In this document: positions 1,127 through 9,437 of the stretch, piece after piece
Layout of the letters: every line of letters begins with the position of its first letter
Numbering within the stretch: position 1 is the first letter of the stretch
Source: Melioribacter sp.
Lineage (GTDB): Bacteria; Bacteroidota; Ignavibacteria; Ignavibacteriales; Melioribacteraceae
Assembly: GCA_003155655.1 (NCBI GenBank)
Contig: PMDS01000099.1
Location: 62,001 to 126,000, forward strand
Direction: 5' to 3'
Length of the DNA: 64,000 bases
Translations under genes and position numbers: made by a program
Notes under the pieces: model-generated
The model's database searches: none
Told to the model about the DNA's origin: nothing
What the model saw: the letters and a program-made list of their open reading frames with translations, nothing else

Positions 1127-2590
1127 TTACTTGACACGAAAAAGCATCTTAATCAAACGTGTAAATTCATTTTTCTCTATAACACGCAGAGCAAATAATG
1201 AACCAACAAATGCGAACAGCAAAATAAATTTATTGATTAAATTTATTCCGATGTAGTAATATAGATAATAGTAAATTATACCGGTAATAAAAATTAAGGC
1301 AAGAATTATAAATACTTTTCCAAATTCATATTTAACCGGGTAAAATTTTTGAGAATAATAATACAATCCTCCTGCCATAATCATATAACTTGCTAATGTA
1401 GCCAAAGCAGCGCCCATTATTCCTAAAATCGGAATTAATAATATGTTAACAATTACATTGGCTAAAGCTCCTGCTCCGGTAACAATAGGGAAATATTTTG
1501 TTTTTTCTTGTATATAAATTCCTGCCTGAAAATTGTAATATATTCCATTAAATAAATAACCCAGGAGAATTATTGGCACAATCGGCAGTCCGCTCAGATA
1601 TTCTTTACCTATAATTGTTTTGCCATGCCAAAATTGAATATGGGCAAAATTATCTATAAACAATGTCAGTACAATCCAGATTAAACTTGTAATAATTAGA
1701 AAAAGTGTTAACACTTTAGCAAATATTTCTTTTGCATTTTTTTCTTTTGCATTATTTAAAAAGAAAGGCTGCCATGCATACTGGAACATCATAACAAACA
1801 GCATCATAAATATTCCAAGTTTGTAATTTGCATTGTAGATGCCAAGTGTACCAGCATTTGTCATTCTAAGAACAACCGGTCTATCAATTACATTTACAAT
1901 TGTTGCCGCCAATGCACCCGGAAGATAAGGAATTCCAAACACTATTATTTTTTTCATTATTCCCTTGTCAAATACTAGCGACAATGATTTGAAAGTTTCA
2001 GGTTGAAGGGCTATAAAAGAAAATAAAGAAGCAACCAAATTAGAAATAAAAATTGCTTCAATTCCCATTTTCAATTTCAAAATCAAATAAAAATTTAAGA
2101 CAAGATTAATAATTATATTCAAGAATTTAATTACAGTATAGTATACTGCCCTTCTTTCCAACCGCAATTTTGCAAAGGGCACAATAGCAATCGTATCAAG
2201 CGCAACAATAAAAATTAAATAGTAAAATAGTTTTAAATAATGTCCTGGAATTTCCATCAGCGAAGAGAAGGGAGTGCGCAAAAAATAAAGCAGCAATCCA
2301 AGAACTATTGTAGTTGAAGTTAACAGATAATATGTAGTAGAAAATACTTTTTTCTTCTCATCTGCACCGGCTGTAGATGCAAACTTCATATAAGCCGCAT
2401 CCATGCCATATATAAACAAGATATTTATAAATGCAATATATGCGTAAATATTTGCCTGAATTCCAAACTCGCCTGTAGGAAAAACATTTGTATAGAATGG
2501 AACTAATAAAAATCCAAGGGTTCTTCCAACAATTGTGCTTATTCCATAAATTGCTGTGTCTTTGGTAAGTTCTTTTATTTTTTCAATCAT
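1127..2590 (-). CDS. Polysaccharide flippase (Wzx/MATE-like oligosaccharide transporter)
   Basis: A 487-aa integral membrane protein with about 12-14 hydrophobic segments spread over its length, typical of the MOP/MATE-like flippases that move lipid-linked glycans across the inner membrane. The N-terminus (KDTAIYGISTIVGRTLGFLL followed by PFYTNVF) is the usual helix 1 of this family. It stands apart from the main glycan cluster, which begins about 1.5 kb away beyond the thioesterase and accA genes. It is clearly more distant from the two flippases at 12792 and 18033 than those are from each other. The substrate cannot be read from the sequence. Confidence 0.85.
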   Translation of the reverse strand: MIEKIKELTKDTAIYGISTIVGRTLGFLLVPFYTNVFPTGEFGIQANIYAYIAFINILFIYGMDAAYMKFASTAGADEKKKVFSTTYYLLTSTTIVLGLLLYFLRTPFSSLMEIPGHYLKLFYYLIFIVALDTIAIVPFAKLRLERRAVYYTVIKFLNIIINLVLNFYLILKLKMGIEAIFISNLVASLFSFIALQPETFKSLSLVFDKGIMKKIIVFGIPYLPGALAATIVNVIDRPVVLRMTNAGTLGIYNANYKLGIFMMLFVMMFQYAWQPFFLNNAKEKNAKEIFAKVLTLFLIITSLIWIVLTLFIDNFAHIQFWHGKTIIGKEYLSGLPIVPIILLGYLFNGIYYNFQAGIYIQEKTKYFPIVTGAGALANVIVNILLIPILGIMGAALATLASYMIMAGGLYYYSQKFYPVKYEFGKVFIILALIFITGIIYYYLYYYIGINLINKFILLFAFVGSLFALRVIEKNEFTRLIKMLFRVK

Positions 2591-2638: not shown

Positions 2639-3073
2639 TTATTTAGTAAAATATTTAGATAGAGCATCAACATATATTTTAGGTGGTCTTACAGCTTTTT
2701 TAGTATCATTACGAATAAACAAATGAGTAGTAAACCCTTCAGAAACTAATTCCTTTGTTGCTTTTCTAATAACTTTATATTCAATATGCACTTTAGGCGA
2801 ATGAAGTTCTTTTATTTTTGCTTCAATCTCAAGAATATCATCATAAATAGCCGGAATTTTATATTTTATTCCTGCTTCAATCAATGGCAATTGATATCCA
2901 TTTTTTTCAACTTCAGCATAAGATATTCCGGTAGCACGTAATAATTCAGTTCTGGCAACTTCAAAATACTCAAGATATTTTCCATGCCAAACAAAATTCA
3001 TCATATCTGTATCAGCATACCTTACACGTATTTCGGTTGTATTAGTAAACAATTCATTCTCCAGACCCACCAT
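2639..3073 (-). CDS. Acyl-CoA thioesterase, hotdog fold (YbgC/4HBT family)
   Basis: A single hotdog domain of about 144 aa. The N-terminal motif RVRYADTDMMNFVWHGKYLE followed by YFEVAR is the signature of YbgC/4-hydroxybenzoyl-CoA thioesterases; the Asp of YADTD is the catalytic position in that family. The protein would hydrolyse a short or medium acyl-CoA or aryl-CoA thioester. I prefer the ATG at 3073 (MVGLEN) over the TTG six codons upstream. It lies just downstream of accA, in keeping with lipid metabolism. The exact substrate is unknown. Confidence 0.85.
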   Translation of the reverse strand: MVGLENELFTNTTEIRVRYADTDMMNFVWHGKYLEYFEVARTELLRATGISYAEVEKNGYQLPLIEAGIKYKIPAIYDDILEIEAKIKELHSPKVHIEYKVIRKATKELVSEGFTTHLFIRNDTKKAVRPPKIYVDALSKYFTK

Positions 3074-3146
3074 ACTAAATGGGTTATACAATTTTTATTT
3101 AATCAGATTAAAAATTCAGATGTATAATAAAATTATCTGGGAGCAT

Positions 3147-4097
3147 TTATTCAACGTAAACACCCATCCTGGCAAATTTTTCAAGACGAGACTGAACAAG
3201 TTTTTCCGGTTTAATCCTTAGAAGTGTTTCAAGTTCATCTTTTAATACTGATTTTAATGTAGCAGCAATAAGCGCATGATCTTTATGAGCACCCCCAAGC
3301 GGTTCCGGAATTATTCTATCAATAATTCCCTGCTCAAGCAAATCTTCGGCAGTAAGCTTAAGAGCCTCAGCAGCTGTTTCCTTATATTCCCAACTGCGCC
3401 ATAAAATACTAGAACAAGATTCAGGACTAATAACAGAATACCAAGTATTCTGCAGCATCAAAATTCTATCTCCGACCCCGATACCAAGCGCTCCACCGCT
3501 GGCTCCTTCGCCAATAATTGTAACAATAATAGGAACCCGCAAACGACTCATTTCAAAAAGATTTCGTGCAATAGCTTCAGCCTGCCCGCGTTCTTCTGCT
3601 TCAATTCCCGGGTATGCTCCGGGTGTATCAATCATTGTAATTACCGGAATTTTGAATTTTTCAGCCAGCTTCATCAACCGTAAGGCTTTTCTATAGCCTT
3701 CAGGATTTGACATACCAAAATTTCTGAACAGGTTAGATTTTGTATCCCGTCCTTTTTGGTGACCAATTACCATAACTTTTTGATTATCCAGCATTGCTAA
3801 CCCGCCAACAATTGCTTTATCATCCTTGAAAAGCCTGTCGCCATGGAGTTCAATAAAATTTTCAGTGGTCATATAAATATAATCAAGAGTATAAGGACGT
3901 TCAGGATGGCGGGCAAGTTGAACGCGCTGCCATCTTGTTAAATTATCATAAATATTTTTTTTGAGCTCCATAACTTTCTCTTCAAGCGTTTTAACTTCTT
4001 TAGAGATGTCAAGATGGCCTTCTAATTTTTTCATCTCTTCAATTTTTTGTTCAAGTTCTATAATTGGCTTTTCAAAATCCAGAATATTTTTTGCCAT
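3147..4097 (-). CDS. accA: Acetyl-CoA carboxylase carboxyltransferase subunit alpha
   Basis: Transfers the carboxyl group from biotin carboxyl carrier protein to acetyl-CoA, making malonyl-CoA in the first step of fatty-acid synthesis. It has an N-terminal helical segment (residues 1-50), then the crotonase-like core with [29 protein letters not shown], the oxyanion-forming IDTPGAYPG, and [14 protein letters not shown]. Its length of 316 aa is standard. The ATG at 4097 has GGAG a few bases upstream and is preferred over the TTG one codon earlier. accD is not adjacent. The gene follows the GT2 fusion gene (4110-6089) by a short gap. Confidence 0.97.
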
Positions 4098-4109
4098 CAA
4101 TTCTCCACA

Positions 4110-6089
4110 CTAAAAAAACATTTTCGAAAATGACTTGCCAAGAATTTCAAGATCAAGCCAGATATTTTGATTCTTTGCGTAAAAGATTTCCATCTTTCTG
4201 CTTTCTTCAGAATCTGATTCTAAAGAACTTTCAATAAACCAGAATCCGGTTAGTCCAATTTTTCCAACGTAAAGTTCACCAGAAAAAGATGAATTTTTAG
4301 GACCGACAAAACTTTTTTCACCGGTTACTATTTTTGGAATACCAAGAATAAAGCGGAAAAATTCATTTTTCTTGGAGGTGAACTTGTGAATTAAATATAT
4401 AAAAGGATAAACCAAAAACAAAATTAAAATACCCAGCACAAAATCAAATGTCCTTTTTATAGCACGATGCAGGTATGATGAAATATTATACTGCACACGC
4501 AGCAATGGAATATCATCCAGCATAGTAATAGATGATTTACCAACCAGGTAATTCAACTCCTTGCCAGCGACCAAAAATTCAGCATTCTCTCCATAGCACT
4601 CTGATACAATAGCAAACATTTGATTGAAAGACAAATCATCAGAAGAAAAAATTACTTTATTAATTTTTTCATCAGCAATTATTTTTTTAATGTTATCAAC
4701 AGCGCCCAGAATCTTATAATTACCGACCTGAGAACCAACATTTTTTCTTGTTAATCCGATTAACCCCACAACATGATATAAGCGCGTAAACGTAGACTTA
4801 AGTTTAACTGCAAGTTCTTCCGCTTTAATTTCATTAGCAACAATCAAAGTGCGTGATTTTTTAATATCAGTTTCAAGGCCAATTTTGAAAATTACTTTAA
4901 ATATGGTTCTCCAAAGAGAAAAGAAGACAAAAGCAAATGAATAAGATATTATTACAACAGCACGGCTGTAAGCAACCTGCTTAAAAAAGAAAGTTAAAGC
5001 TGAAAGAAACACCATTCCAAACAATAAAGAGATGAAAGTTTGAAGTATTGAAAAAGATTTCTTTTTAAAAGCACCTGTTATTAATGAGATAATAATCTGG
5101 AATAAAGCGGGAACAAAATAAACCCAGGGTTTAACAATATCGGGGAAACCAACCCAATGATCCTTTGAATAAACATGCTCAGCTATAAAAACAGCAAGAG
5201 AGAAAAAAATAAAATCAATTATTATTGAAATGATTGAAAATTTATAAACATTGAAGAAAGAGAACATCTTGCGCAGCCAAATTGCAACCTGTAAAATTGA
5301 CTCAACAATAAAAGATGAGGAAAAATGTTTACGAACAAAAAGGTTCATTGCTTTATAGAAAAGTGTCGTCTCATCCAGGCTGCTTCGTTTTGTACTTTCA
5401 CCTTTATAATGAATTATTTCTGTAGTATGGACATAATAGACCTTAAACTTTTCTTTCTGGACACGATAACAAAGATCGAGGTCTTCACCATACATAAAAA
5501 ATTGTTCGTCAAACCCGCCGACTTTTTCATAAACATCTTTTCTGATAACCATGAAGGCGCCACTAACAGCATCAACTTCATAAGACTTATTTTCATCAAG
5601 GTAAGTAAGATTGTATCTTGCAAAAACACGGTTTTTAGGAAAAAGTTTACTAAGACCTGTTACTTTTGTAAATGAAGTCCACGGACCAGGAAAGCTTCTT
5701 CTACAAGCAAGCTGAATTGTTCCATCCGGATTAAGAACTTTACACCCGGCAATTCCAACTTGAGGCATCAGTTCAAAAAAATCCATCATTTTTGTAAGAG
5801 TATCTTCACGAACGATTGTATCAGGGTTTATTAAAAGGAAATACTTTCCTTTTGCAATTTTCATTGCCTGATTATTAGCAGTGCCAAAACCTGTATTAGT
5901 TTTGTTTGCAATTAGCTTAACATCCGGAAATTTCTCATGTAAAATTTCAATGCTGCCATCATCCGATGCATTATCAACAACAATTATTTCAGTAGAAATA
6001 TTGGCAGCAGCCTTACGTATTGACCCAAGAAGGTTGAGAAGAAATTCTTTTACGTTATAGTTTACTATTATTATTGATAAGTCAATCAT
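4110..6089 (-). CDS. GT2 glycosyltransferase fused to a membrane-bound, degenerate sugar-phosphate transferase domain
   Basis: Residues about 1-230 form a GT2 (WbbL-like rhamnosyltransferase) domain: it opens with IDLSIIIVNYNV, has VVDNASDDGS and LLINPDT as the nucleotide/metal-binding motif, and then GAFMVIRKDVYEKVGGFDE. Residues about 260-390 hold several transmembrane helices, followed by a CoA-binding-3-like region, as in polyprenyl glycosylphosphotransferases. The last 120 residues keep only edges of the transferase core (KRTFDFVLG, SFVGP, GLTGFW, a WLDLEIL end). The KFRSM and DELPQ catalytic portions are missing. The likely start is the ATG at 6089, 7 bases after the upstream stop. The GT2 half may be active; the C-terminal half probably is not. 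Confidence 0.8.
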   Translation of the reverse strand: MIDLSIIIVNYNVKEFLLNLLGSIRKAAANISTEIIVVDNASDDGSIEILHEKFPDVKLIANKTNTGFGTANNQAMKIAKGKYFLLINPDTIVREDTLTKMMDFFELMPQVGIAGCKVLNPDGTIQLACRRSFPGPWTSFTKVTGLSKLFPKNRVFARYNLTYLDENKSYEVDAVSGAFMVIRKDVYEKVGGFDEQFFMYGEDLDLCYRVQKEKFKVYYVHTTEIIHYKGESTKRSSLDETTLFYKAMNLFVRKHFSSSFIVESILQVAIWLRKMFSFFNVYKFSIISIIIDFIFFSLAVFIAEHVYSKDHWVGFPDIVKPWVYFVPALFQIIISLITGAFKKKSFSILQTFISLLFGMVFLSALTFFFKQVAYSRAVVIISYSFAFVFFSLWRTIFKVIFKIGLETDIKKSRTLIVANEIKAEELAVKLKSTFTRLYHVVGLIGLTRKNVGSQVGNYKILGAVDNIKKIIADEKINKVIFSSDDLSFNQMFAIVSECYGENAEFLVAGKELNYLVGKSSITMLDDIPLLRVQYNISSYLHRAIKRTFDFVLGILILFLVYPFIYLIHKFTSKKNEFFRFILGIPKIVTGEKSFVGPKNSSFSGELYVGKIGLTGFWFIESSLESDSEESRKMEIFYAKNQNIWLDLEILGKSFSKMFF

Positions 6090-6096
6090 TATAATG

Positions 6097-6813
6097 CTAG
6101 TCAAGTTTTCTAAGAATTGTTTTTAAACGTAATTTCCAAACCATAACAATTGCCTCGCGAACAATTTTTTTCGACATTTTTGAAGTGCCGTGAACTCTGT
6201 CAGTAAATGTTATAGGAATTTCGTGAAGACGAAATCCTTTTTTCCACGCTTTGTAATTCATTTCAATTTGGAAAGAATATCCATTTGAATGAATTGTATC
6301 AAGGTTAATTGATTCGAGCACCTTTCTGGAAAAGCATTTGAAGCCACCAGTACCATCCTTTACAGGCATACCTGTAATAATTCTTGTGTAAAGGTTAGCA
6401 AAGTAACTTAAGAGTAATCTTCTTATTGGCCAGTTAATAACCCGGATACCATGAATATACCTGCTGCCAATAATTAAATCATATTGTTTAATAGCTTCCA
6501 AAAATCTTTTTATTTCTTTCGGATCATGAGAATAATCGGCATCCATTTCAATAGCAACATCATAACCTTTTGAAAGCATATACTTAAAACCGGCAACGTA
6601 TGCAGTTCCAAGTCCCATTTTCCTTTCACGTTTCAATAAATTTATATTGGTGTTTGTTCTGCATAATTCTTCAACATAATCAGCAGTTCCATCCGGAGAA
6701 TTATCATCAACAATGAGAATATGACTCATTGGATACATATTAGTTAGATCCATCAATAGTTTCTGAATGTTGTTCAATTCATTATAAGTCGGAATAATTA
6801 TAAGTGATTTCAT
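6097..6813 (-). CDS. Dpm1-like polyprenol-phosphate glycosyltransferase (GT2)
   Basis: A soluble GT2 enzyme of 238 aa resembling bacterial polyprenol monophosphomannose synthases, which transfer mannose or another hexose from a sugar nucleotide to a polyprenyl phosphate. Motifs seen are SLIIIPTYNE at the start, VDDNSPDGTADYV, MDADYSHDPKEI with the DXD-type metal site, GSRYIHG, GTGGFKCFSR, and a basic C-terminal tail with VHGTSKMSKKIV. The ATG at 6813 is the start that places the IIPTYNE strand at the N-terminus; upstream codons would overlap the previous gene. No C-terminal GtrA-like membrane domain is present. The lipid-linked sugar it makes could feed the GT-C-like protein at 40039. Confidence 0.85.
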   Translation of the reverse strand: MKSLIIIPTYNELNNIQKLLMDLTNMYPMSHILIVDDNSPDGTADYVEELCRTNTNINLLKRERKMGLGTAYVAGFKYMLSKGYDVAIEMDADYSHDPKEIKRFLEAIKQYDLIIGSRYIHGIRVINWPIRRLLLSYFANLYTRIITGMPVKDGTGGFKCFSRKVLESINLDTIHSNGYSFQIEMNYKAWKKGFRLHEIPITFTDRVHGTSKMSKKIVREAIVMVWKLRLKTILRKLD

Positions 6814-6826
6814 AGCCAAATTTTTT

Positions 6827-8230
6827 TTAATTGAAATGACCTTTGCCAAATAATACAACAAAGATTGTTCTAAAAAGGATTTTAAAATCCATTCTTAAAC
6901 TCATATTCTCAATATAAAATAAATCATACCTTAATTTAACACGCACGTCTTCAATAGATTCGTCATATTTATGCTTTACTTGCGCCCACCCTGTAACACC
7001 GGGCCGCACTTTTAATCTTCTTTTATACAATGGGATTTCCTGAGATAATTTTTCAACAAAAAAAGGTCTTTCAGGGCGAGGACCAACAAAACTCATATCA
7101 CCCCGTAAAATATTAATAGCTTGCGGAATTTCATCAATACGAACTTTGCGCATGAATCTGCCAAACTTAGTTATTCTCGGGTCTCCTTTAGTTGACCAAA
7201 CAGGGCCGGTATGCTTTTCAGCATCTTGAATCATTGACCGGAATTTATAGATTTTAAATATTTTTCCATTCAATCCGCTTCTTTGCTGTTTATAAAAGAC
7301 AGGTCCTTTGCTCTCTATTTTAATGAGTATTGCTGTAATAATAAGAAAAGGTGAAGTAATAAATATCAATAGAAAAGAAAGGACAACATCCATAAGTCTT
7401 TTAATTTTTATTTCCCATACAGGCATTAATTCCGGCATAATATCAATTAACGGCATGCCATAAATTTGCGAAGTTCTTACCTGACCGCTAATTATATCAT
7501 AAAGATCCGGAACAATTTTTATCTCAACGTTTTTCCCTTCACATTTTGAAATAACTTCAAGCAATGTTTCTTCATGGTGCCTTTCAAGTGAAATAATGAC
7601 ATTCCTAATTGATAGATCAATAATAATTTTTTCAAGTTCATTTACAGTTCCAATTACTCTTACTCCATTATGAACCTTATCAAGATTTTCATTCATAACA
7701 GATATATATGCAACTATATCAATACCAAGAGCTCTATGTTTTTTTATAGTGTTGTGAAGTTCCTGTGACTTAGTATTGAAACCAACAATAACAGCATTTC
7801 TTCTGCCAATTCCATTTATAAGTAAACTTCGCTGAATACTTCTTATTGTAAGACGCCCTGCACCAACCAGGGATAGAAATAATCCCCAATAAATGAAAAT
7901 ATAAAATCCAAAAGATGTTGAGGCACCACGCGTAAAGTCATCATACATTATCAAGAAAAGCAGAATAAAAATACCGACAAAAGACGATTTGAATAATGTT
8001 GACAGTTCATCAAAACGAGATAAAGCAAACCAAGTTCTATACATTCCAACAATAGTGAATATTACAAGCCAATAGATGTAAAGAACAATCATTGGTAAAA
8101 GAAAATCCGGGCGGGAGATTAGTGCAAACCATCCGGTTTCAACCCTCAAATAAAAAAACAGGATAAGTGAAAGGTTGATCGTTATAAAATCAGTTGAGAG
8201 AATTAATATTTTTTCAATTTTTTTGCTCAA
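6827..8230 (-). CDS. Undecaprenyl-phosphate sugar phosphotransferase (initiating transferase of the glycan)
   Basis: Starts glycan synthesis by moving a hexose-1-phosphate from a sugar nucleotide onto undecaprenyl phosphate. The N-terminal half has four or five transmembrane helices and a CoA-binding-3 domain. A further helix precedes the catalytic domain, which is complete: KRLMDVVLS, KGPVFYKQQRSG, IYKFRSM, GDPRITKFGRFMRKVRIDE with the IDEIPQ catalytic acid, GDMSFVGPRPER and RPGVTGWAQVK. It belongs to the WbaP/WcaJ family. Translation seems to begin at TTG 8230, 7 bases after the lhgO-like stop; the first ATG lies 46 codons in. This intact copy contrasts with the decayed C-terminal domain at 4110. 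Confidence 0.93.
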   Translation of the reverse strand: MSKKIEKILILSTDFITINLSLILFFYLRVETGWFALISRPDFLLPMIVLYIYWLVIFTIVGMYRTWFALSRFDELSTLFKSSFVGIFILLFLIMYDDFTRGASTSFGFYIFIYWGLFLSLVGAGRLTIRSIQRSLLINGIGRRNAVIVGFNTKSQELHNTIKKHRALGIDIVAYISVMNENLDKVHNGVRVIGTVNELEKIIIDLSIRNVIISLERHHEETLLEVISKCEGKNVEIKIVPDLYDIISGQVRTSQIYGMPLIDIMPELMPVWEIKIKRLMDVVLSFLLIFITSPFLIITAILIKIESKGPVFYKQQRSGLNGKIFKIYKFRSMIQDAEKHTGPVWSTKGDPRITKFGRFMRKVRIDEIPQAINILRGDMSFVGPRPERPFFVEKLSQEIPLYKRRLKVRPGVTGWAQVKHKYDESIEDVRVKLRYDLFYIENMSLRMDFKILFRTIFVVLFGKGHFN

Positions 8231-8237
8231 GTTAAAC

Positions 8238-9437
8238 CTAAGAAAATTTCTCTAATGCCTTAATTGAAATGAAATCTCCAATTGATAGTGAAGCTGTTGC
8301 AGCCGGAGATGGAGCATTACAAATATGTATTATTCTTTTATCTTCAACAATAAAAAAATCATCAAGTAATCCGCCAGTTTTATCACAAGCCTGGGCGCGT
8401 ACACCAGCACCGCCTGGAATTAAATCATCTTTTTGAATTTCGGGAATTAAACGCTGCAATGCTTTAACAAAAGCATTTTTATTTAAAGAACGATAATACT
8501 CACCTAGACCCATAAACAAATTATTTTTAATAACTTTATGAAATCCCGGCCAGGACAAAGTCTCGAATGCATCCCGGAAATTGAAACTGGATTTATTATA
8601 GCCTTCACGTTTTAACGCAAGCACTGCGTTAGGTCCGCACTCAACCGAACCGTCAATCATTTTAGTAAAATGAACTCCAAGAAATGGGAATGCAGGATGC
8701 GGTACAGGATATATGAGAGATTTTACTAATTTTTTTTTCTCTTCTTTCAGTATATAATATTCACCACGGAAAGGAATGATTCTTAATGAAAGATTTGGAT
8801 GTGTCATTTTAGCAAGACGGTCAGAATACAAACCCGCACATGTAATTAATATTTTTGTTTCATAAGTTTCATTTTGAGTAACAACTTCACAACCATCATT
8901 TTTGACAACAATATTTTGAACAGTTGAATTAAATATAATCTTTCCATCGAGGCTTTTAATAATCTCGAGATATTTCTCCGAAACTTTTGTATAATCAATT
9001 ATTCCCGTCTGAGGCACCAAAATGCCGGCAATAGCATCTACATGGGGTTCAATTTCCTTTATTTCATTATGAGTAATTTTCTTTAACCCACTCAAACCAT
9101 TTTTAATTCCACGATCCAAAATACTTTCCATGTAAGGCAATTCATCTTTTGAAACAGCTACAATCACTTTTCCGCAAATATTGAAAACCACATCATTCTT
9201 TATGCAGAAATCAATCAGCATTTTGCTGCCCCTGATACAATTCTGCACTTTCAAGCTTCCCGGCTTATAATAAATACCAGAATGGATAACTCCGCTATTA
9301 TTTCCTGTTTGATGCTTTGCAACACCATCTTCTTTTTCAATAAGTAATAATTTAAGAGAAGAATTCTTTTCTAGAATTTTTAATGATGCAGCAAGGCCAA
9401 CAATTCCGGCTCCAACTACAATAATATCATACTTCAT
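8238..9437 (-). CDS. lhgO: L-2-hydroxyglutarate oxidase/dehydrogenase-like FAD enzyme
   Basis: An FAD-dependent DAO-fold oxidoreductase of 399 aa. It opens with the dinucleotide-binding motif VVGAGIVGLAASLKI and then has HQTGNNSGVIHSGIYYKPGS, a hallmark of the LhgO/YgaF family, which oxidises L-2-hydroxyglutarate to 2-oxoglutarate using the membrane quinone pool. GGAGVRAQACD and SPAATASLSIGD near the C-terminus also fit. Its ATG overlaps the stop of the GT4 gene upstream by 4 bases (ATGA). Its presence inside a glycan cluster is unusual, and whether it acts on a sugar-pathway intermediate cannot be told from sequence. Confidence 0.88.
   Translation of the reverse strand: MKYDIIVVGAGIVGLAASLKILEKNSSLKLLLIEKEDGVAKHQTGNNSGVIHSGIYYKPGSLKVQNCIRGSKMLIDFCIKNDVVFNICGKVIVAVSKDELPYMESILDRGIKNGLSGLKKITHNEIKEIEPHVDAIAGILVPQTGIIDYTKVSEKYLEIIKSLDGKIIFNSTVQNIVVKNDGCEVVTQNETYETKILITCAGLYSDRLAKMTHPNLSLRIIPFRGEYYILKEEKKKLVKSLIYPVPHPAFPFLGVHFTKMIDGSVECGPNAVLALKREGYNKSSFNFRDAFETLSWPGFHKVIKNNLFMGLGEYYRSLNKNAFVKALQRLIPEIQKDDLIPGGAGVRAQACDKTGGLLDDFFIVEDKRIIHICNAPSPAATASLSIGDFISIKALEKFS

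Follow-up and report, generated by a model that had tools for sequence, protein, structure and literature searches.

A conserved fusion of a GT2 glycosyltransferase with a phosphoglycosyl transferase half that lacks the catalytic core

A re-entrant helix and an active site containing an Asp-Glu dyad are given as the defining traits of monotopic phosphoglycosyl transferases (monoPGTs), and in PglC two basic residues, Arg88 and Arg145, are said to bind undecaprenyl phosphate (PMC10519829). In WbaP, one of the large enzymes of this type, the domain of unknown function (DUF) has a hairpin that is exchanged between subunits, and this domain has been linked to the binding of uridine nucleotides (PMC10942596). 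Here, we describe a gene of Melioribacter sp. in which a GT2 glycosyltransferase is joined to a C-terminal half (C-half) resembling a large phosphoglycosyl transferase (PGT) without its catalytic core. It lies in a stretch of 64,000 nucleotides (contig PMDS01000099.1, positions 62,001 to 126,000; hereafter the window) and belongs to a widespread family of fusions, all of which, as far as counted, share this absence.

The fusion and its missing core

The fusion frame (4110-6104, minus strand) comprises 664 amino acids (aa) when read from a TTG codon. Its likely start is the ATG at 6089 (residue 6), as alignments with orthologues mostly set in at residues 4-7. As the first-pass annotation of the window had proposed, GT2 is fused to half of a polyprenyl sugar-phosphate transferase: besides the GT2 domain, Pfam recognises CoA_binding_3 (residues 346-501, 26.3 bits, barely above the cut-off of 25) and a Bac_transf domain restricted to profile positions 96-178 of 179 (residues 591-663). 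The latter match stands above its cut-off (37.6 versus 27 bits) and yet does not imply an active initiating enzyme. The NCBIfam model EPS_sugtrans matches residues 296-578 at 4e-38, under its cut-off (131.7 versus 295.6 bits). By hydropathy, four helices fall at 289-401 and a fifth at 555-573, a layout shared with P0002 (8-125 and 285-303), the intact PGT, which has a near-complete Bac_transf domain and which the annotation had correctly placed two genes upstream. The motifs KRTFDF, SFVGP, GLTG and WLDLEIL are all found in the fusion protein, while KFRSM and DELPQ are not, again as had been read initially. Indeed, only 48 residues separate the KR of the re-entrant helix from SFVGP, versus 103 in P0002, where this segment contains KFRSM and DEIPQ. 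Of the traits that define monoPGTs, the fusion thus keeps the re-entrant helix without the Asp-Glu dyad; the D-x12-P motif of this helix is retained, with D554 and P567 near-invariant in 53 members and a spacing one residue less in most Bacteroidia rows. Judged from sequence, the site of phosphosugar transfer is lost. That the half would still be catalytic through relocated residues is hardly credible: the PGT scaffold fold is kept in the predicted model, but between the helix and SFVGP 55 residues are missing relative to P0002, the Lys/Arg and Asp-Glu motifs have disappeared, and the alignment offers no conserved acidic pair as a replacement. The GT2 half is apparently an active glycosyltransferase, its invariant or near-invariant columns including NPDT (93-96), GED (206-208) and H232. 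Among the NCBIfam models listed for it, none reaches its cut-off (the rhamnosyltransferase model TIGR01556 scores 46 bits versus 200.55).

An assembly error was ruled out by the presence of the same form in 54 of the 57 genomes searched, and a recent deletion in this genome by the fact that all fusion frames counted lack the core. The 54 full-length fusions include its own, and the other 53 are at 45-78% identity; in two genomes a contig end truncates the fusion, and G042 gave other GT2 matches only. No core was found in any of the 43 fusion frames of the close-genome alignment, nor in the longest fusion frames, chosen partly for a length sufficient to hold one (20-frame set; 16 frames above 600 aa; 635 to 1310 aa). 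The search in other genomes that the annotation had suggested was extended to 161 distinct frames from Ignavibacteria, other Bacteroidota, KSB1, Neomarinimicrobiota and further genomes. DExPQ and a KFRSM-like motif in the last 200 residues each occur in 0 of these 161 (0 of 134 in an earlier count), so that relatives with a full core, which would have pointed to a recent loss, were sought and not met among them. Two loose KFRSM-like matches in fusion frames fall in the DUF. As a positive control, both motifs were recovered in 30 of 30 intact PGT frames of at least 430 aa in L035-L129 (24 with the first pattern, six as DEVPQ). Since the core is missing from each of the 161 frames, its loss is not due to chance; the loss is fixed in the family and does not reflect damage of recent date.

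The 161 frames are those, among 226 loci, that cover both ends of the family model (at least 280 bits, the match starting before model position 100 and reaching position 620 or beyond). Twenty frames were excluded for coverage: the contig-cut L001, L049, L064, L065 and L067, the short L078 and L128, the GT2-only L156 and L199-L202, and L103, L141, L158, L159, L160, L193, L198 and L203. L160 and L198 are the same genome, and L035 and L054 as well as L047 and L126 are duplicates across collections. A broad scan, of which the best 80 of 549 matching stretches in genomes were considered, gave Ignavibacteria, Kryptonium, Saprospiraceae, Flavobacteriales, Hymenobacter, Bacteroidales, KSB1, Neomarinimicrobiota and others. 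At the level of the phylum, the GT2 profile matches 234 of 395 genomes at E 1e-80 or better, and 145 of the best 150 rows listed are frames of at least 600 aa by hand count, a length that does not prove the presence of the PGT half. The remaining 161 genomes have no GT2 match at 1e-80; when 20 of them were searched again, 13 gave weaker matches only (frames of 278-590 aa) and seven none at 1e-35. The C-half profile matches 215 of the 395 genomes at 1e-10 and is unsuited as a count of fusions, because it does not separate them from intact PGTs. No plasmid-borne fusion was found, 0 of the 261 PLSDB records with a match covering 80% of the protein in one place. A second fusion in G052 and G038 was rejected as a GT2 gene and a PGT gene read through one stop.

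Origin, conservation and predicted fold of the C-half

When 37 pseudo-halves were placed in one tree with 36 intact PGTs, a single branch separated the two groups, with a support of 100 in the Shimodaira-Hasegawa-like approximate likelihood-ratio test. The tree was built by a quick method without bootstrap from 368 of 599 columns, namely those with at least 75% of rows filled, so that the lost core is excluded; 28 of its 70 inner branches are below 80. With a midpoint root, the members branching nearest the intact enzymes come from KSB1, Neomarinimicrobiota and the families of L133/L136/L146/L148. The C-half probably descends from a large PGT by one ancient event, which the tree fits without proving. 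The core may have been lost stepwise, since 62-75 residues are retained between the helix and VG in L063 (KSB1), L107 (Neomarinimicrobiota), L133, L136 and L148, 14-27 more than the 48 of the window and without a dyad; L072 and L149 have 39-41.

The C-half had initially been called decayed. This term does not hold, since purifying selection acts on the half and its retention is widespread. The ratio of nonsynonymous to synonymous substitution rates (dN/dS) is 0.04-0.13 for the C-half and 0.03-0.13 across the gene's three parts (values from 10 of the 13 pairs with dS below 1.2). Among 53 diverse members, K550, D554, P567, V600 and G601 reach at least 90%, and Y642 and D651 are invariant. A remnant heading for loss would be compatible with the graded shortening of the spacer down to GT2-only forms and with the existence of two members of only 553 and 543 aa. 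However, the strong purifying selection and the invariant residues of the half speak against it, with dN/dS contradicting decay for this lineage, and the half is kept in the 145 of the best 150 phylum rows mentioned above, by frame length only; we regard decay as very improbable. Descent from an enzyme, conservation and the lost catalytic motifs together make the C-half, by its sequence, a pseudoenzyme.

Conservation is not evenly distributed. Within the order, the mean top frequency is 0.81 in the tail, 0.71 in the hairpin, 0.61 in the DUF, 0.55 in the re-entrant helix and 0.51 in the junction. In the wide set, the tail and the re-entrant helix lead within the C-half (identity 0.34 and 0.33), followed by the hairpin (0.26) and the DUF (0.24), and no hairpin column reaches 90% identity. 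As the hairpin loses its edge in the wide set, conservation does not single out dimerisation and favours the membrane-facing parts.

For the whole protein, AlphaFold2 gives a model with a mean predicted local distance difference test (pLDDT) of 86.5 and low confidence in the hairpin region around 521-540. Its GT2 half adopts a GT-A type fold (Z about 20-23 against solved GT2 enzymes). Modelled alone, the C-half has a pLDDT of 85.5, and its best match in the PDB is WbaP (8t53; Foldseek E 2.5e-12, the next at 8e-4). VIA-align superposes 340 residues of the two with Z 14.2 and a root-mean-square deviation (rmsd) of 12.6, meaning that the domains match and their arrangement differs; the end part aligns with PglC over 122 residues (Z 11.2, rmsd 3.6). 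The fold of the catalytic domain of large monotopic PGTs is therefore kept in the predicted model of the C-half.

On balance, we favour, with moderate confidence, a two-domain enzyme of glycan assembly in which the dead half, itself without catalytic function, gives GT2 a platform at the membrane and the lipid carrier. The four-helix bundle and the re-entrant helix would hold GT2 at the membrane next to the lipid carrier, and the nucleotide-fold domain with the hairpin would probably dimerise, either with itself or with the neighbouring PGT. Several observations weigh against this proposal. The equivalents of PglC Arg88 and Arg145 are probably in lost or changed parts of the C-half, and its lipid binding may accordingly be weak. 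The predicted template modelling score of the C-half alone is only 0.50, which leaves its domain arrangement uncertain. Moreover, GT2 occurs without the PGT half in Parabacteroides (388 aa, at a site after recR; L156 2965-4131) and in four further genomes (L199-L202, frames of 388-428 aa), lineages in which the platform is dispensable. If the platform role is true, a superphylum-wide gene demonstrates that a PGT scaffold in the membrane can be of use even without catalysis, and gives direct access to the question of how lipid-linked glycan assembly keeps its first two enzymes together.

The 388-aa GT2 of L199 (2369-3532) also follows recR, a gene found beside the fusion in 25 of 53 Bacteroidia-like loci, mostly directly upstream; L156 and L199 constitute natural deletion experiments for the PGT half. 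In the two short members mentioned above, L078 (553 aa, 5977-7635) and L128 (543 aa, 5962-7590), the PGT end is seemingly lost, with GT2, the helices and part of the DUF kept.

A DUF-like piece is also kept in two of the four short forms, L199 and L201. This could be expected if the retained DUF were a regulatory sensor that binds UMP or UDP-sugars and tunes GT2, as could the match of residues 133-243 of the C-half model with a Rossmann-type sugar-nucleotide dehydrogenase (3nkl; Z 13.3, 108 residues). A common fold is nevertheless no proof of a ligand, and the DUF core ranks low in conservation (the mean identity of 0.24 in the wide set), which makes a sensor improbable.

Gene neighbourhood and a possible partner

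The intact PGT is the second gene upstream of the fusion, with a gene similar to dolichyl-phosphate mannose (DPM) synthases in between (Table 1; neighbour labels were checked by Pfam and some also by NCBIfam). Directly upstream of the PGT lies a gene for L-2-hydroxyglutarate oxidase (8238-9437, NCBIfam above cut-off), and matching genes stand beside the PGT in several close loci (L047, L048, L050-L052).

Table 1. Features of the fusion gene and its neighbours in the window (residues refer to the 664-aa frame)
Feature	Position	Strand	Remarks
GT2-pseudoPGT fusion gene	4110..6089	minus	open frame extends to TTG at 6104; likely ATG 6089
GT2 glycosyltransferase domain	5388..6080	minus	residues 9-239; Pfam GT2, 82 bits
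Four transmembrane helices	4887..5240	minus	residues 289-406; correspond to four-helix bundle of large PGTs
CoA_binding_3 / DUF Rossmann-like domain	4566..4856	minus	residues 417-513
Beta-hairpin region (VGKSSITMLDDIPLL...YNIS)	4467..4565	minus	residues 514-546; conserved within order; place of WbaP dimer-swap hairpin, positioned by eye from alignment
Re-entrant membrane helix, D-x12-P motif (D554, P567)	4377..4466	minus	residues 547-576
Junction, site of missing KFRSM and DELPQ catalytic segment	4323..4376	minus	residues 577-594
Retained PGT C-terminal end: SFVGP, GLTG, YAKNQNIWLDLEIL tail helix	4113..4316	minus	residues 597-664
Polyprenyl-phosphate-sugar (DPM) synthase-like GT2	6097..6861	minus	upstream neighbour in Ignavibacteria-type loci
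Intact large monotopic PGT P0002 (EPS_sugtrans family)	6827..8230	minus	Bac_transf 1-178 of 179, 239 bits
accA, acetyl-CoA carboxylase carboxyltransferase alpha	3147..4100	minus	frequent downstream neighbour outside Bacteroidia
YbgC/FadM-type acyl-CoA thioesterase	2639..3091	minus	
Wzx-like polysaccharide flippase	1127..2590	minus	

This linkage recurs in three gene orders, PGT-DPMS-FUS-accA, FUS-accA-thioesterase-PGT and FUS-tgt-PGT (FUS, the fusion; DPMS, the DPM-synthase-like gene). Among Ignavibacteria-type loci with at least 3 kb on both flanks, 21 of 23 have an intact PGT no more than 5 kb upstream, and all 23 have the DPM-synthase-like gene upstream and accA downstream; at least two genomes occur twice in this group, and its KSB1 locus L063 is also counted in the following one. 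Of the other non-Bacteroidia loci (n = 38, mostly with short flanks), 15 have a PGT near the fusion (14 downstream, one upstream), 26 have accA and five have the DPM-synthase-like gene. Near the fusion of the Bacteroidia-like loci, PGT, DPM-synthase-like gene and accA were found in 0 of 53 (34 with at least 3 kb on both sides), in a search that a PGT unlike P0002 (below 45 bits) would escape. Grouping was made from record titles and context, and the last group, nearly all Bacteroidia, holds one Chitinispirillaceae record (L128). The position of accA directly downstream of the fusion in very different lineages ties a fatty-acid gene to a glycan gene.

A pairing of the dead half with the neighbouring PGT, in line with the scaffold role that the first-pass annotation had suggested, is plausible, though unproven. 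The corresponding alternative is that both form a heterodimer in which the first lipid-linked sugar is passed directly to GT2. Besides the three arrangements, it draws on the presence of a PGT orthologue in all 56 fusion-bearing genomes of the 57 (partial in G031, split in G039) and its absence from G042, where the fusion is missing too; by hand reading, the orthologue is within about 3 kb of the fusion on the same contig in 55, the exception being G046. Large PGTs also dimerise via the DUF hairpin (PMC10942596), which is relatively conserved at the order level. Against it stand the 53 loci, nearly all Bacteroidia, without a PGT found nearby, the lack of a hairpin column at 90% identity in the wide set, and the GT2 genes of Parabacteroides and the four further genomes that do without the half. 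In addition, polysaccharide genes would be expected to cluster together anyway, and in the Neomarinimicrobiota assembly of L107 (G424) the fusion is the sole Bac_transf match, which argues against a fixed need for a PGT within the limits set by the completeness of this assembly (the other 11 of 12 genomes checked have intact PGT genes). We therefore consider the heterodimer possible but clearly less probable than the platform. Slightly more tentative still is its evolutionary extension, in which the pseudo-PGT half would swap its hairpin with the live initiating PGT and form a fixed two-step unit since the common ancestor of Bacteroidota, KSB1 and Neomarinimicrobiota, perhaps the first pseudoenzyme of the monotopic PGT superfamily to be described.

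The DPM-synthase-like gene is present in 147 of 148 genomes of the phylum sample (about 47-77% identity in the main rows outside its own genome), and its product is a candidate maker of polyprenyl-phosphate-mannose for protein O-mannosylation. In a 2025 review, the machinery of the mannose-rhamnose core of Bacteroidota protein O-glycans is given as not identified (PMC12871550; see also PMC8698959 and PMC10897501). GT2 of the fusion might serve this shared core together with the adjacent gene, a speculative lead that we rate as improbable; a role as phylum-wide core enzyme is weakened by the 161 of 395 genomes without a GT2 match at 1e-80.

Comparison with described systems

Among described proteins, FpgA of Flavobacterium psychrophilum was ruled out as a studied member of the family, the cloned gene fragment being 1105 bp (PMC4293000). 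Judged by titles and abstract openings, no description of an inactive PGT half was found among the open-access papers listed. The plasmid match labelled WbbL-like (LT969519.1) shares the GT2 sequence family and the GT-A type fold and spans only residues 14-278 of the fusion. A likeness of another kind is offered by myxobacterial EpsZ, a large PGT described as having no DUF hairpin, and whose dimerisation is proposed to need a partner protein, EpsW; unlike the pseudo-PGT half, EpsW is a response regulator (PMC12802240). The closest relatives are the large monotopic PGTs of the WbaP/WcaJ type (PF13727 and PF02397), which share with the C-half the four-helix bundle, the DUF, the hairpin region, the re-entrant helix with D-x12-P, VGP and the C-terminal helix; the fusion differs by the absence of the Asp-Glu dyad and the KFRSM segment and by its N-terminal GT2. 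Finally, the bifunctional monoPGTs (Bi-PGT) also carry a second functional domain fused to the monoPGT domain, but their PGT part is catalytic (PMC10942596), whereas it is inactive by motif in all fusion frames counted here. The joining of a glycosyltransferase to a PGT is thus an already known class, of which the inactive PGT half is the new element in this variant.
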